A stretch of 64,000 bases of DNA from Pseudomonas sp. MM223 (GTDB taxonomy: Bacteria; Pseudomonadota; Gammaproteobacteria; Pseudomonadales; Pseudomonadaceae), in the NCBI GenBank assembly GCA_947090765.1, contig OX352322.1, positions 6,255,001 through 6,319,000 of the forward strand. Direction: 5' to 3'. A program made the position numbers and the translations under genes. Below the pieces are notes generated by a model. That model worked only from the letters and a program-made list of their open reading frames with translations. It made no database searches and was not told the DNA's origin. Shown here piece by piece: positions 4,915 to 15,623 of the stretch; positions within the stretch are counted from its first letter, which is position 1; the number at the start of each line of letters is the position of its first letter.

Positions 4915-6182
4915 CCATCAGTATTCTTGGCGCCCGGGTCATCGATCCCAAGACCGGCCTGGACCAGGTCACCGACCTGCACCTGGACGGTGGCCGCATT
5001 GCCGCCATCGGCGCCGCGCCGGCCGGTTTCAGCGCCAGCCGCACGATCCAGGCCGATGGCCTGGTCGCCGCACCTGGCCTGGTCGACCTGGGCGTGTCCC
5101 TGCGCGAGCCGGGCTACAGCCGCAAAGGCAACATCGCCAGCGAAACCCGCGCTGCCGTGGCAGGCGGTGTCACCAGCCTGTGCTGCCCGCCGCAGACCAA
5201 GCCGGTGCTGGACACCTCGGCGGTGGCCGAGCTTATCCTGGACCGTGCCCGCGAGGCCGCCAACAGCAAGGTGTACCCGATCGGCGCCCTGACCAAAGGC
5301 CTTGAAGGCGAGCAACTGGCCGAGCTGGTGGCCCTGCGCGATACCGGTTGCGTGGCCTTCGGCAACGGCCTGAAGGAAATCCCCAACAACCGTACCCTGG
5401 CCCGTGCCCTGGAGTACGCTGCCACTTTCGACCTGACCGTGGTGTTCCACTCCCAGGACCGCGACCTGGCCCAGGGCGGCCTGGCCCACGAAGGCGCCAT
5501 GGCCAGCTTCCTCGGCCTGCCGGGCATCCCTGAAAGCGCCGAAACCGTGGCCCTGGCGCGCAACCTGCTGCTGGTGGAACAAAGCGGCGTGCGTGCGCAC
5601 TTCAGCCAGATCACCAGCGCCCGTGGCGCCCAGCTGATTGCCCAGGCGCAGGCACTCGGCCTGCCGGTGACCGCCGATGTGGCGCTGTACCAGCTGATAC
5701 TCACCGATGAATCGCTGCGCGAGTTTTCCAGCCTTTACCACGTGCAGCCACCGCTGCGCACCGCCAAAGACCGGGACGGCTTGCGCGCCGCCGTCAAATC
5801 GGGCGTGATCCAGGCGATTTCCAGCCATCACCAGCCGCATGAACGCGATGCCAAGCTGGCCCCGTTCGGCGCCACCGAGCCGGGCATCAGCAGCGTCGAG
5901 TTGCTGCTGCCACTGGCCATGACCCTGGTGCAGGACGGCCTGCTCGACCTGCCGACCTTGCTGGCCCGCCTGAGCAGCGGCCCTGCTGCTGCCCTGCGCC
6001 TGCCGGCCGGTGAGCTGAAAGTGGGTGGCGCGGCCGACCTGATACTGTTCGACCCGCAAGCTTCCACCGTTGCCGGCGAGCAGTGGTTCTCACGCGGCGA
6101 GAACTGCCCGTTCATCGGCCACTGCCTGCCAGGTGCGGTGCGTTATACCTTGGTCGATGGGCACGTCTGCCACGAGGCCTGA
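4911..6182 (+). CDS. pyrC': Inactive dihydroorotase-like subunit PyrC' (PyrX)
   Basis: A 423-residue amidohydrolase-fold homologue of dihydroorotase. In active enzymes the segment after the first strand reads DLHVHLREPG with two zinc-binding histidines; here residues 60-68 read LGVSLREPG, so both His are replaced (Gly61, Ser63). This agrees with the known role of P. putida PyrC' as a non-catalytic scaffold for the aspartate transcarbamoylase dodecamer. The start is GTG at 4911, overlapping the pyrB stop in a GTGA arrangement that implies translational coupling and fixed stoichiometry. A genuine dihydroorotase must be encoded elsewhere. It ends just before an inverted repeat at 6185-6272. Confidence 0.95.
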
Positions 6183-9144: not shown

Positions 9145-10825
9145 ATGAGTAACAAGAACAACGATGAGCTGCAGCGGCAGGCCTCGGAAAACACCCTGGG
9201 GCTGAACCCGGTCATCGGCATTCGCCGCAAGGACCTGTTGAGCTCGGCACGCACCGTGCTGCGCCAGGCCGTGCGCCAACCGCTGCACAGCGCCAAGCAT
9301 GTGGCCCACTTTGGCCTGGAGCTGAAAAACGTGCTGTTGGGCAAGTCCAGCCTGGCCCCGGAAAGCGACGACCGTCGCTTCAATGACCCGGCCTGGAGCA
9401 ACAACCCGCTGTACCGCCGCTACTTGCAAACCTACCTGGCCTGGCGCAAGGAGCTGCAGGACTGGATCGGCAACAGCGACCTGCCCCCCCAGGACATCAG
9501 CCGCGGCCAGTTCGTCATCAACCTGATGACCGAAGCCATGGCACCGACCAATACCTTGTCCAACCCGGCAGCGGTCAAACGCTTCTTCGAAACCGGCGGC
9601 AAGAGCCTGCTCGACGGCCTGTCCAACCTGGCCAAGGACATGGTCAACAATGGCGGCATGCCCAGCCAGGTGAACATGGAAGCCTTCGAAGTGGGCAAGA
9701 ACCTGGGCACCAGCGAAGGGGCGGTGGTGTTCCGCAACGATGTGCTGGAGCTGATCCAGTACAGCCCCATCACCGAACAGGTGCATGCCCGCCCGCTACT
9801 GGTGGTGCCACCGCAGATCAACAAGTTCTACGTGTTCGACCTGAGCCCGGAAAAGAGCCTGGCGCGCTACTGCCTGCGCTCGCAGCAGCAAACCTTCATC
9901 ATCAGCTGGCGCAACCCGACCAAGGCCCAGCGTGAATGGGGCCTGTCCACCTACATCGATGCGCTCAAGGAAGCCGTCGACGCGGTGCTGGCGATTACCG
10001 GCAGCAAAGACCTGAACATGCTCGGTGCCTGCTCCGGCGGTATCACCTGCACCGCGCTGGTGGGCCACTACGCCGCCATTGGCGAAAACAAGGTCAATGC
10101 CCTGACCCTGCTGGTCAGCGTGCTGGACACCACCATGGACAACCAGGTGGCATTGTTCGTCGACGAACAGACCCTGGAAGCCGCCAAGCGCCACTCCTAC
10201 CAGGCTGGCGTGCTGGAAGGCAGCGAAATGGCCAAGGTGTTCGCCTGGATGCGCCCCAACGACCTGATCTGGAACTACTGGGTCAACAACTACCTGCTCG
10301 GCAACGAGCCGCCGGTGTTCGACATCCTGTTCTGGAACAACGACACCACGCGCCTGCCGGCCGCCTTCCACGGCGACCTGATCGAAATGTTCAAGAGCAA
10401 CCCCTTGATCCGCCCGGACGCCCTGGAAGTGTGCGGCACCCCGATCGACCTGAAGAATGTGCACTGCGACATCTTCAGCGTTGCCGGTACCGCCGACCAC
10501 ATTACCCCGTGGCAATCGTGCTACCGCTCGGCGCACTTGTTCGGCGGCAAGATCGAGTTCGTGCTGTCCAACAGCGGCCACATCCAGAGCATCCTCAACC
10601 CGCCAGGCAACCCCAAGGCGCGCTTCATGACCGGCGCCGATCGCCCGGGCGACCCGGTGGCCTGGCAGGAAAACGCCACCAAGCATGCCGACTCCTGGTG
10701 GCTGCACTGGCAGAGCCTGGCTGAGCGAACGCGCCGGGGAGCTGAAAAAAGCACCTACCCGCCTGGGCAACCGCGCTTATGCCGCTGGCGAAGCCGCCCC
10801 GGGCACCTACGTTCACGAGCGTTGA
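9145..10825 (+). CDS. phaC1: Class II PHA synthase PhaC1, frameshifted near its 3' end
   Basis: Polymerises (R)-3-hydroxyacyl-CoA into medium-chain-length polyhydroxyalkanoate at the granule surface. The alpha/beta-hydrolase-like catalytic region has the lipase-box variant GACSGG with nucleophile Cys296, as in class II synthases. The normal frame would give 559 residues ending GTYVHER at the TGA 10823-10825, exactly the family length if one base is removed. Here one extra C at 10716/10717 (CAGAGCCTGG where homologues encode QSWL) shifts the frame after residue 524, so the last ~35 residues are replaced and the open frame continues into phaZ (864 codons to 11739). It may be a real mutation or a sequence error. 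The ATG at 9145 follows GGAG with 8-nt spacing. Confidence 0.9.
9151..9158 (+). promoter_or_regulatory. Hfq/Crc-type A-rich motif in phaC1 codons 3-5
   Basis: AACAAGAA (followed by CAAC) matches the AANAANAA pattern bound by Hfq with Crc in Pseudomonas catabolite repression, placed just after the start codon. Crc is known to repress phaC1 translation in P. putida, which supports the assignment. Confidence 0.6.
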
Positions 10826-10833
10826 GTTGCGCT

Positions 10834-10869
10834 GCCGTGGCCGCCATGAGGGCGCCACGGCACTTTTTT
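10834..10869 (+). terminator. Rho-independent terminator between phaC1 and phaZ
   Basis: Stem GCCGTGGC (10834-10841) with GCCACGGC (10854-10861), 12-nt loop, then CA and a run TTTTTT. It would attenuate phaC1 transcripts before phaZ. Because of the phaC1 frameshift, the fused open frame is translated straight through this hairpin. Confidence 0.75.
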
Positions 10870-10887
10870 CACGACAGAGTCGAACGC

Positions 10888-11739
10888 ATGCCGGAACCCT
10901 ACATCTTCAGGACCGTCGAACTGGACGACCAGTCCATTCGCACCGCCGTCCGCCCGGGCAAGCCGCACCTGACACCGTTGCTGATCTTCAACGGCATCGG
11001 CGCCAACCTGGAGCTGGTGTTCCCGTTCATCGAGGCGCTGGACCCGGACCTGGAGGTGATCGCCTTCGATGTGCCCGGTGTAGGTGGTTCATCCACCCCG
11101 CGTCACCCCTATCGCTTTCCTGGCCTGGCCAAGCTCACGGCACGCATGCTCGATTACCTGGACTACGGCCAGGTCAGCGCCATCGGCGTGTCCTGGGGCG
11201 GCGCCCTGGCCCAGCAATTTGCCCACGACTACCCGGAGCGCTGCAAGAAACTGGTGCTGGCCGCCACTGCGGCCGGCGCAGTCATGGTGCCGGGCAAACC
11301 CAAGGTCTTGTGGATGATGGCCAGCCCCAGGCGCTACGTGCAGCCTTCCCATGTGATCCGTATTGCACCGCTGATCTACGGCGGCGCCTTCCGCCGCGAC
11401 CCGGACCTGGCCATGCACCATGCGTCCAAGGTGCGCTCCGGCGGCAAGCTGGGCTACTACTGGCAGCTGTTCGCCGGCCTGGGCTGGACCAGCATCCACT
11501 GGCTGCACAAGATCCATCAGCCAACGCTGGTGCTGGCCGGTGACGACGACCCGCTGATCCCGCTGATCAACATGCGCCTGCTGGCCTGGCGGATTCCCAA
11601 TGCCCAACTACACATAATCGACGATGGCCACCTGTTCCTGATTACCCGGGCCGAGGCCGTCGCACCGATCATCATGAAGTTTCTCCAGGAAGAACGTCAG
11701 CGCGCGGTGATGCACCCGCGCCCCGCCTCTGGCGGTTGA
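10888..11739 (+). CDS. phaZ: Intracellular PHA depolymerase
   Basis: Serine hydrolase that breaks down stored medium-chain-length polyhydroxyalkanoate in the granule, giving a synthesis/degradation cycle with PhaC. The 283-residue product has the standard length, an alpha/beta-hydrolase fold, the lipase box GVSWGG with Ser102, an Asp in GDDDPL near 221 and a His in DDGHLF near 248, matching the known triad of the KT2440 enzyme. The ATG at 10888 begins MPEPYIFRTVELDD. No strong Shine-Dalgarno is visible. In this sequence the phaZ frame is continuous with the shifted phaC1 frame, so PhaZ could be made both alone and as the C-terminal part of a fusion starting at fusion residue 582. Confidence 0.95.
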   Translation: MPEPYIFRTVELDDQSIRTAVRPGKPHLTPLLIFNGIGANLELVFPFIEALDPDLEVIAFDVPGVGGSSTPRHPYRFPGLAKLTARMLDYLDYGQVSAIGVSWGGALAQQFAHDYPERCKKLVLAATAAGAVMVPGKPKVLWMMASPRRYVQPSHVIRIAPLIYGGAFRRDPDLAMHHASKVRSGGKLGYYWQLFAGLGWTSIHWLHKIHQPTLVLAGDDDPLIPLINMRLLAWRIPNAQLHIIDDGHLFLITRAEAVAPIIMKFLQEERQRAVMHPRPASGG

Positions 11740-11781
11740 TTGTCGCTGCCCAAGAATCGGGGAAGACGAGGGAGTGTTGCC

Positions 11782-13464
11782 ATGACAGACAAACCGGCCA
11801 AAGGAACGAAAACGCCTCCCGCCACCAGCATGAACGTGCAGAACGCCATACTCGGCCTGCGCGGGCGCGACCTGGTGTCGACCCTGCGCAGGGTCGGCCG
11901 CCACGGCTTGACCAACCCCCTGCACACGGCGCGGCACCTGTTGGCGTTCGGCAGCCAGCTGGGCCGCGTGATGCTGGGCGACACGCCCTACCAGCCCAAC
12001 CCCCGCGACAGCCGCTTCAGCGACCCGACCTGGAGCCAGAACCCGTTTTATCGCCGTGGCCTGCAGGCCTATCTGGCCTGGCAGAAGCAAACGCGCCAGT
12101 GGATCGACGAAAGCCATCTGGACGACGATGACCGGGCCCGCGCGCACTTTCTGTTCGGCATGATCAATGACGCCCTGGCACCGAGCAACTCGCTACTCAA
12201 CCCGCTGGCAGTCAAAGAACTGTTGAACACCGGCGGGCAAAGCCTGGTGCGTGGCGTGGCCCACTTGCTCGACGACCTGCGCCACAACGACGGCCTGCCG
12301 CGCCAGGTGGACGAACGCGCCTTCGAGGTCGGTGGCAGCTTGGCGGCAACGCCGGGCGCGGTGGTGTTTCGCAACGAGCTGCTGGAACTGATCCAGTACA
12401 AGCCGATGAGTGAAAAACAGCACGCCAGGCCCTTGCTGGTGGTGCCGCCGCAAATCAACAAGTTCTATATCTTCGACATGCAGGCGCACAACAGCTTCGT
12501 CCAGTACATGCTCAAAAACGGCCTGCAAGTGTTCATGATCAGTTGGCGCAACCCCGACCCGCGCCACCGCGAATGGGGCCTGTCTTCGTACGTGCAGGCG
12601 CTGGAAGAAGCACTGAACGCCTGCCGCAGCATCAGCGGCAACCGCGACCCCAACCTGATGGGTGCCTGCGCCGGTGGCCTGACCATGGCCGCACTGCAGG
12701 GCCACCTGCAGGCGAAACATCAGCTGCGCAAGGTCCGCAGCGCCACTTACCTGGTCAGCCTGCTCGACAGCAAGTTCGACAGCCCGGCCAGCCTGTTTGC
12801 CGACGAGCAAACCGTCGAGGCTGCCAAGCGCCGCTCCTATCAACGGGGTGTACTGGACGGCGGCGAAGTGGCAAGGATTTTCGCCTGGATGCGCCCCAAC
12901 GACCTGATCTGGAACTACTGGGTCAACAACTACCTGCTCGGCAAAGCCCCGCCCGCATTCGACATCCTGTACTGGAACGCCGACAACACGCGCCTGCCAG
13001 CAGCGCTGCACGGCGACTTGCTGGACTTTTTCAAGCACAACCCGCTCACCCACCCGGCAGGCCTTGAAGTGTGCGGCACGCCCATCGACCTCAAGCAGGT
13101 CAACCTGGACAGCTTTACCGTGGCCGGCAGCAACGATCACATCACCCCGTGGGACGCCGTGTACCGCTCGGCCTTGCTGCTCGGTGGCAACCGGCGTTTC
13201 GTGCTGGCCAATAGCGGGCATATCCAAAGCATCATCAACCCGCCAGGCAACCCCAAGGCCTACTACCTGGAAAACCCCAAGCTTTCCGGCGACCCACGCG
13301 CCTGGTTCTACGAGGCCCAACGCAGCGACGGCAGCTGGTGGCCCCTGTGGCTGGAATGGATCACGCCGCGCTCCGGCCCGCTCAAGGCTCCGCGTACCGA
13401 GTTGGGCAACAGTACCTATCCACCGCTCGGCCCGGCGCCAGGCACCTATGTCCTGACCCGATGA
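11782..13464 (+). CDS. phaC2: Class II PHA synthase PhaC2
   Basis: Second medium-chain-length polyhydroxyalkanoate synthase of the cluster. The 560-residue product is full length with the lipase-box variant GACAGG and nucleophile Cys296, at the same position as in PhaC1, and the conserved C-terminal block NSGHIQSI with the catalytic His. Start ATG 11782 follows GAGGGAG with suitable spacing; an in-frame ATG at 11740 lies at the phaZ end and is not preferred. Because phaC1 is frameshifted, PhaC2 may be the only PHA synthase here with an intact C-terminus. phaD begins 13 bp after its stop. Confidence 0.96.
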   Translation: MTDKPAKGTKTPPATSMNVQNAILGLRGRDLVSTLRRVGRHGLTNPLHTARHLLAFGSQLGRVMLGDTPYQPNPRDSRFSDPTWSQNPFYRRGLQAYLAWQKQTRQWIDESHLDDDDRARAHFLFGMINDALAPSNSLLNPLAVKELLNTGGQSLVRGVAHLLDDLRHNDGLPRQVDERAFEVGGSLAATPGAVVFRNELLELIQYKPMSEKQHARPLLVVPPQINKFYIFDMQAHNSFVQYMLKNGLQVFMISWRNPDPRHREWGLSSYVQALEEALNACRSISGNRDPNLMGACAGGLTMAALQGHLQAKHQLRKVRSATYLVSLLDSKFDSPASLFADEQTVEAAKRRSYQRGVLDGGEVARIFAWMRPNDLIWNYWVNNYLLGKAPPAFDILYWNADNTRLPAALHGDLLDFFKHNPLTHPAGLEVCGTPIDLKQVNLDSFTVAGSNDHITPWDAVYRSALLLGGNRRFVLANSGHIQSIINPPGNPKAYYLENPKLSGDPRAWFYEAQRSDGSWWPLWLEWITPRSGPLKAPRTELGNSTYPPLGPAPGTYVLTR

Positions 13465-13477
13465 GCCCGACCACTGG

Positions 13478-14092
13478 ATGAAGACCCGCGACCGTATCCT
13501 CGAATGCGCCCTGCAGCTGTTCAACCAGCAGGGCGAACCGAACGTATCCACCCTGGAAATTGCCAACGAACTGGGCATCAGCCCGGGCAACCTGTACTAC
13601 CACTTCCACGGCAAGGAGCCCTTGGTGCTGGGCCTGTTCGAGCGCTTCGAGGAAGCGCTGATGCCCTTGCTCGACCCGCCCCTGGAGGTCCGCCTGGACG
13701 CCGAGGACTACTGGCTGTTCCTGCACCTGATCGTCGAGCGCATGGCCCAGTACCGCTTTCTGTTCCAGGACCTGTCCAACCTCACCGGCCGTTTACCCAA
13801 GCTGGCGCGCGGCATGCGCAGCCTGATCAATGCAATCAAGCGTACGCTGGCGGCGCTGCTGGCCAGCCTCAAGGGCCAGGGGCTGGTAGAGAGTGAGACC
13901 CAGTCGCTGGGGCAACTGGTGGAACAGATCACAATGACGCTGCTGTTCTCGCTGGATTACCAGCGGGTGCTTGGGCGCGAGGGGGACGTGGGGATTGTGG
14001 TGTATCAGGTGATGATGCTGGTGGCGCCGCATCTGCAAGCCCAGGCGCGGGCGGCGGCAGAGCAGTTGGCGGTGCGGTATCTGGAGGGGTAA
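13478..14092 (+). CDS. phaD: TetR-family activator PhaD
   Basis: A 204-residue TetR-type regulator with an N-terminal helix-turn-helix (STLEIANELGISPGNLYYHF at about residues 24-43) and a C-terminal ligand/dimer domain. In P. putida KT2440 PhaD activates the phaC1ZC2D and phaIF promoters and is thought to sense a fatty-acid-derived effector. It is 13 bp downstream of phaC2 and is the last gene of the forward operon, converging on phaF with a REP pair between. Confidence 0.94.
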   Translation: MKTRDRILECALQLFNQQGEPNVSTLEIANELGISPGNLYYHFHGKEPLVLGLFERFEEALMPLLDPPLEVRLDAEDYWLFLHLIVERMAQYRFLFQDLSNLTGRLPKLARGMRSLINAIKRTLAALLASLKGQGLVESETQSLGQLVEQITMTLLFSLDYQRVLGREGDVGIVVYQVMMLVAPHLQAQARAAAEQLAVRYLEG

Positions 14093-14266: not shown

Positions 14267-15044
14267 TTAGATCAAGGTACCGGTGCCCGTTGGTGCCGAT
14301 GGCGCGCTGCTGGCCGGGGCGGCGGCAGGTGCCGGTGCTGCGGTAGCGGCCGGGGCGGCGCTGGCCGCTGGGGCTGCTGGCTTGGCGGCGGCCGGTTTGG
14401 CCGGGGCTTTCTTGACCGCAGGTTTCTTCGCTGCCGCGGGCTTGGCCGCTGCCGGTTTCGCTGCAGGCTTGGCCGCTACAGGTTTGGCCGCAGGTTTGGC
14501 CGCTGCCGTCTTAGCTGCAGGTTTGGCCGCCGCAGTTTTCGCCGCGGGCTTGGCCGCTGCTGCCTTGGCCAGTGGCTTGGCCGCTGCCTTGCTCGCAGCC
14601 GGTTTGGCGGCGGCAGAGCGCGACGAAATTGGCGTAACCGAAGCGCCGGTCAGCTTCTCGATCTGCTTGGTCAGGCTGTCCACCTGCTGGTGCAGGGCCT
14701 TGATCTCGTTGCGGCTCGGCACGCCCAGGCGCGAGATGGCGCTGTTCAGGCGCTTGTCGAAGGCCTCTTCGAGTTCGCTCCACTTGCCCAGCGCACGGTC
14801 CTTCACGCCAGACACGCGCGAAGTGGTCGACGACTTGGCGGTTTCGGCGACTTCTTCAGCCGTTTTCTTCGCCTGCTTCTCGGCTTTCTCGCCGTCTTTC
14901 ACCAGCGAGTCGAACAGCTTAGGGCCGTCCTGGTCGACTTTCGAATAGATACCCAGCCCCGCCAGCCAGATCTTGCGGGAGTACTTCTCGATCCCGCCGA
15001 CCCAGGAGCTCGCCTTCTTTTTCGGTGTTCTTCTTGCCAGCCAT
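14267..15044 (-). pseudogene. phaF: PHA granule phasin PhaF, disrupted by a one-base insertion
   Basis: PhaF is a granule-associated phasin with a histone H1-like C-terminus that links granules to DNA and helps segregate them at division. The intended ATG is at 15044 (MAGKKNTEKEG). An extra base at about 15011 then shifts the frame and gives a stop after about 41 residues. Removing it restores a 258-residue protein: an N-terminal phasin domain sharing KIWLAG with PhaI, then KDGEKAEKQ, a leucine-zipper-like HQQVDSLTKQIEKL, and a long Ala/Lys/Pro-rich tail of AAKPA-type repeats ending GTGTLI. The remaining open frame from the ATG at 14902 would give 211 residues lacking most of the granule-binding N-terminus. 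It lies 10 bp after phaI. Confidence 0.88.
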
Positions 15045-15054
15045 CCTGCTCTCC

Positions 15055-15474
15055 TTATGGTTTGTGCGCGACGCGCTCAAGCAGCTCGTGCAGCTGTTCA
15101 AGCTTGACCGACAACGCCTCAACGTCATGTTTAGACGGAATGCCGAGGCGATTCAAGGCGCGTCCTACCCGTGCGTCGAAAGCTTTTTCGATCTTGTCGA
15201 GTTGAATTTCTACCTTGCCGCGTACGCGACTGACTTCTTCAGCGGCTTCGTCGATCTGGTTGTTGGCAGCATCGAGCTCTTTGTCGATGCGTTTCTTGCC
15301 ACGCTTCTCGACGCCTTCGCCGGCCTTGACCAGCTCCTGGAAGTAGTCGGAGCCTTCCTGGCCCACCCGCGCATAAGCGCCGATGCCAGCCAGCCAGATC
15401 TTGCGTGCGTAGCCGCGCACTTCGCCCAGCGTACCCGGGGCGTCGTCCTTTTTCTTCACAGTCACTTTGGCCAT
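15055..15474 (-). CDS. phaI: PHA granule phasin PhaI
   Basis: Small 139-residue granule-surface phasin. It shows the phasin block RGYARKIWLAGIGAYARVGQ at about residues 20-39, an amphipathic helical middle and a heptad-like C-terminus (VEALSVKLEQLHELLERV), homologous to the N-terminal part of PhaF. The start at 15474 (MAKVTVKKKDD) is preferred over an upstream in-frame ATG at 15534 because of family conservation. It is first in the phaIF operon, known to be activated by PhaD, and is divergent from the DUF6543 gene at 15650. Confidence 0.94.
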   Translation of the reverse strand: MAKVTVKKKDDAPGTLGEVRGYARKIWLAGIGAYARVGQEGSDYFQELVKAGEGVEKRGKKRIDKELDAANNQIDEAAEEVSRVRGKVEIQLDKIEKAFDARVGRALNRLGIPSKHDVEALSVKLEQLHELLERVAHKP

Positions 15475-15623
15475 GCTCTGTACCTCATGCTCATGAGTGG
15501 AGGAGAACCGCCCATGGAGGTTGGGCTTGAGCATAAGGTAGAGGCAGGAATTAGAATCTTCACCCTAAGATCGCCGCACTGATGTATCTACCGCAGCAGC
15601 TCCAGGCTGGCGTTCCAGCATTC

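Follow-up and report, generated by a model that had tools for sequence, protein, structure and literature searches.

The window analysed here, a stretch of 64,000 nucleotides from Pseudomonas sp. MM223, raises the question of whether the PHA synthase PhaC1 and the PHA depolymerase PhaZ are made in this strain as one fused protein, or whether the frame that joins them was created by the sequencing. The ORF listing and the translation give a single ATG frame of 864 codons at positions 9145 to 11739 of the forward strand. Its residues 1–528 match the class II PHA synthase family TIGR01839 of NCBIfam with a score of 1048.5 (cut-off 855.4), and residues 585–860 match the PHA depolymerase family TIGR02240 over the whole profile (1–276 of 276). 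The PhaC1-PhaZ frame reported in the initial annotation was thus recovered, with both families. The synthase match stops short of full length (profile 1–530 of 560), and we attribute the missing profile end to a sequencing error, for the reasons developed below.

The first 524 codons of phaC1 (positions 9145 to 10716, forward strand) are in the normal frame, as indicated by the translation, the NCBIfam match and the homologue of P. putida NBRC 14671, which is intact and 559 residues long. Codon 524 is AGC (10714–10716); the assembly reads AGCC at this place and the phaC1 frame is left thereafter. Alignment to relatives shows that the frame-shifting base, at 10716/10717, is one extra C in a GAGCTG/CAGCTC site that has become GAGCCTG (positions 10713 to 10719, forward strand), one of 31 such sites in the approximately 616 kb that we aligned. 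This extra C and its effect on the phaC1 frame had been noticed at the outset, and are confirmed by both the sequence and the relatives. The translation then runs through 57 foreign codons (10717 to 10887, forward strand), made of the wrong-frame phaC1 tail and the intergenic region and not conserved among relatives, up to the ATG of phaZ at 10888. The stretch is indeed open, as first described, but the earlier count of 58 codons was one too high. By translation and NCBIfam, phaZ itself is intact, with its own ATG and 283 codons (10888 to 11739, forward strand). By arithmetic, 35 of the 559 PhaC1 residues would be lost in the assembled frame; the normal length of 559 and the loss of about 35 residues given before agree with this figure and with the NBRC 14671 protein. 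Within the read-through, a predicted hairpin followed by a T run (10833 to 10862, forward strand) resembles a terminator. It folds well (−23.4 kcal/mol, z −3.2, with 2 of 200 shuffles equally good), which speaks for the terminator proposed at this place, but it was missing from the output of a simple terminator scan.

We looked at the same site in related genomes, taking the best matches from a search of 199 genomes, 181 of which had one, together with the best 80 of 590 relatives. Among the loci compared (L003 to L111, with some genomes present twice), 107 cover the site and represent 98 distinct sequences; L087 and L089 leave it uncovered, as does L002, which is the phaC2 match of the strain's own genome. 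The extra base is absent from all 107 covering loci, so that the comparison with other phaC1 genes suggested in the initial annotation gave a uniform answer. In 106 of them the sequence is exactly one base shorter at the site, and the remaining one (L095) has the same one-base gap together with further gaps. Among the loci compared, those of P. putida NBRC 14671 and W15Oct28 come closest, with about 96% identity over 401 bases.

The assembly (6.73 Mb, 2 contigs) was then compared with these two relatives over longer distances. A first stretch of 400 kb was set against NBRC 14671, with 368 kb aligned and 7.3% substitutions. Sixteen of the 508 CAGCTC/GAGCTG sites of NBRC 14671, the phaC1 site included, carry a one-base indel in the MM223 assembly and 311 are intact, when 0.85 indels were expected at the motif (Poisson p 1.5e-15). 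In the reverse direction, none of the 486 sites of the assembly has an indel in the relative. The 18 words that differ from the motif by one letter, at any of its six positions, gave 12 indels together at 6064 sites in this stretch (0 to 3 each). Other regions, including rpoB and the sequence after it, were used as second stretches (248 kb aligned, against NBRC 14671 and W15Oct28). Before these data were seen 14 to 16 hits had been predicted, and 15 were found, with fewer bases aligned than the prediction had assumed; they fall on 302 motif sites, 204 of which are intact (expected 0.44, p 2e-18), compared with 0 of 285 in reverse. Here the word CAGTTC had indels at 4 of 257 sites. Taken together, 31 of 810 motif sites are hit in this assembly versus 0 of 771 in the reverse comparison (Fisher p 9e-10); indels at the motif are seen in this assembly only. 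The error at the motif is partial: 515 sites are intact versus the 31 hit, the other 264 of the 810 differing by substitutions or other changes, and among the sites open to judgement about 94% are normal in the assembly, over the approximately 616 kb of 6.73 Mb compared.

The altered sites are either one base too long (for instance GAGCCTG, GAGCTCG, GAGGCTG) or one base too short (GAGCG, GGCTG). When all hexamers were ranked by Poisson p, CAGCTC/GAGCTG came first in both stretches; ranked by fraction in the first stretch, it came seventh, behind rare A/T-rich words with 2 or 3 hits each. With the MM223 assembly as reference, the top hexamer was AGGCTC/GAGCCT, which is the insertion product. 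A count of split frames by tblastn of six-frame ORFs was dropped, since opposite-strand shadow ORFs gave 30 splits in both directions. A stricter phase test retained only one-base indels with a clear codon periodicity on both flanks, and yielded 27 shifts in the MM223 assembly, 14 of them on the exact motif, compared with 6 in the relatives, none on the motif. The assembly therefore also carries shifts off the exact motif; by eye, 5 of these 13 show the product CAGGCTC opposite CAGTTC or CAACTC in the relative. The phaC1 site was left unclassified by the phase tests, its right flank being mostly intergenic.

Could the extra C nevertheless be present in the DNA? A real one-base insertion would fuse PhaC1 to PhaZ, giving a synthase that lacks its last 35 residues and bears the depolymerase at its C-terminus, with phaC2 supplying the synthase activity. 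The frame is indeed open and contains an intact phaZ, phaC2 looks intact, and spontaneous frameshifts are known in single strains. However, the insertion would have to lie exactly on the motif that is hit by indels at 31 of its 810 sites here and at 0 of 771 in reverse, and none of the 107 covering loci shares it. We consider a real insertion very improbable, and the tethering of the synthase to the depolymerase that had been proposed is not borne out.

A programmed ribosomal frameshift, or a phaC1-phaZ fusion conserved as an arrangement, would find some encouragement in the three nearest relatives, in which phaZ has the same phase and the frame is open. Of the 36 distinct relatives in which a phaZ start could be recognised, 7 share the phase, and the frame is open back to the site in only 4 of these 7, 3 of which are these nearest relatives; an open read-through frame is not unusual. 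A search of residues 505–650 against 5.8 billion proteins returned 6 hits, two of which are PhaC1-PhaZ frames. One is the window's own (cluster P0001, 5 member sequences, one contig), and the only other (P0002, 849 residues), which has a different junction, comes from a 12-kb contig of P. aeruginosa. Neither the 107 covering loci of relatives nor, in the 5.8 billion proteins, other isolates provided a fusion with the same junction. Nothing points to a conserved fusion, and a conserved or programmed one was rejected on the ground that only 4 of 36 relatives combine the same phase with an open frame; we give it practically no weight.

The genes split by indels at the motif include fusA (elongation factor G), parE (topoisomerase IV subunit B) and ftsY (SRP receptor), named by NCBIfam on the intact proteins of the relative. 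The breaks lie at 6405164 in ftsY and at 6159285 in parE, which has another hit close to its end, at 6158542. At this second parE site (6158544) the phase rule first placed the shift in the relative; the gene ends about 40 bases away, so that one flank consists mostly of other sequence. Bacteria need topoisomerase IV and the SRP receptor for growth. A profile search of the whole MM223 genome found no other intact parE: it returned the two pieces and one below-cut-off match near the chromosome start, which we take for gyrB. It likewise found no other intact ftsY, returning the two pieces and two lower-scoring matches taken for paralogues. By the same search, both relatives have one copy each of parE and ftsY above the cut-off. 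Since parE and ftsY are essential, split and without another intact copy found, these frameshifts cannot exist in a living cell. The splitting of fusA alone is weaker evidence, because Pseudomonas may carry a second EF-G gene. That CAGCTC is a real mutational hotspot of the strain, for instance through a modification, with indels present in the DNA, would fit the extreme motif specificity, but it is contradicted by the breakage of parE and ftsY, whose products are needed for growth, and by the relatives, which lack such indels at 771 sites, so that we regard it as next to impossible.

Altogether, these data leave us nearly certain that a systematic sequencing error produced the extra C and that PhaC1 and PhaZ are separate in the organism. 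Of the two readings offered in the initial annotation, that of a sequence error is strongly supported, in the shape of a motif-specific error, by the one-sided distribution of the indels as well as by parE and ftsY; a mutation that strongly affects PHA turnover is unsupported, the same type of indel having split these two genes, for which the genome gave no intact copy. A few per cent of the GAGCTG/CAGCTC words are read in this assembly with one base too many or too few. The likely cause would be a modified base in the motif, introduced by one of the strain's own DNA methyltransferases, that disturbs base calling when native DNA is read on a long-read platform of the nanopore type; we infer both platform and modification from the error pattern and from the near-complete assembly in two contigs. 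Polishing would then have left such errors in the assembly. PhaC1 (559 residues) and PhaZ (283 residues) would be produced as separate proteins from an ordinary phaC1-phaZ-phaC2-phaD / phaF-phaI locus, and the intergenic hairpin would not be translated through.

Whether CAGCTC/GAGCTG is indeed a motif modified by a methyltransferase of the strain, with a specificity that we did not find in print, is a tentative proposal, which we hold as possible rather than probable. The literature, searched with the GAGCTG form of the motif, gave no published methyltransferase specificity for it. A search with three Pfam families, whose list of candidates is incomplete, together with profile matches, pointed to several genes. 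These are a candidate C5 methyltransferase (L222:5404-6573), one gene each at L223 and L224 that also matches C5 methylases (at L224 in the Pfam search only), and a protein of 1304 residues with several N6/N4 methylase matches (L225:7892-11806), which matches the PADLOC model MTase_II PDLC03312 nearly over its full length (2864 bits). A type IIG-like candidate of 1299 residues neighbours an SNF2 helicase and an ATPase that weakly matches RecF (L221:5220-14111), in what is likely a defence cluster, matched to no named system. The best PADLOC match of this SNF2 helicase is C3a139 (HKD+Snf2). No link was established between the motif and any of the candidates at L221 to L225.

The fusion seen in this assembly should thus not be taken as biology, and the same probably holds for other genes that are broken in it. 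The idea of a fused protein is to be dropped, along with a shortened synthase and any effect on PHA turnover. The 864-residue protein already present in the protein collection most likely owes its entry to the error. If the rate seen in the approximately 616 kb holds, extrapolation gives a few hundred false frameshifts genome-wide. Other genes of this genome that look broken should be checked against CAGCTC/GAGCTG first, and the motif itself can serve as a pointer to the DNA modification of the strain.

A second class II PHA synthase, phaC2 (positions 11740 to 13464, forward strand), is intact and matches TIGR01839 over the full profile (1–560 of 560); the ORF as listed opens at an upstream TTG and, by eye, the likely start is the ATG at 11782. 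The gene at 13478 to 14092 (forward strand), which gave weak matches to TetR-family regulators, none above a curated cut-off, is presumably phaD by its position. On the reverse strand, the phasin genes that we take to be phaF and phaI occupy 14267 to 15044 (start counted manually) and 15055 to 15534 (ORF as listed, start uncertain), the latter matching TIGR01837 above the cut-off. As indicated by the profile match and by alignment to NBRC 14671, phaF is also split, a CAGCTC near 15006 being read with one base too many. Its N- and C-terminal parts are in two frames, of which the ORF listing holds only the 211-residue C-terminal part, and the break lies 4.3 kb from the phaC1 site, at the same motif.

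This arrangement can be compared with that of known pha loci. The order phaC1-phaZ-phaC2-phaD / phaF-phaI is, we assume, the usual one in Pseudomonas putida and its relatives, and the window has the synthase, the depolymerase, the second synthase, the regulator and the two phasins in the same order. It differs from the P. putida locus in that phaC1 and phaF each carry an extra base; in the corresponding stretch of NBRC 14671, PhaC1, PhaF and PhaI are intact. As for the error, methylation-induced nanopore base errors have been described in bacterial assemblies (PMC11610573, Lohde et al. 2024). The match to the error type described there is not exact. That report deals with ambiguous A/G and C/T calls, that is with purine/pyrimidine ambiguity, at the motif RACG/CGTY, and its main text does not contain the words insertion, deletion or indel; the errors seen here are one-base indels at CAGCTC/GAGCTG, on what is probably a nanopore-type platform. 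Indels together with SNVs in such assemblies, leading to frameshifts, are described in PMC11649196. With the system of PMC11610573, as presented in that report, the present case has in common strain-specific, motif-bound errors in native long-read data that persist into assemblies.
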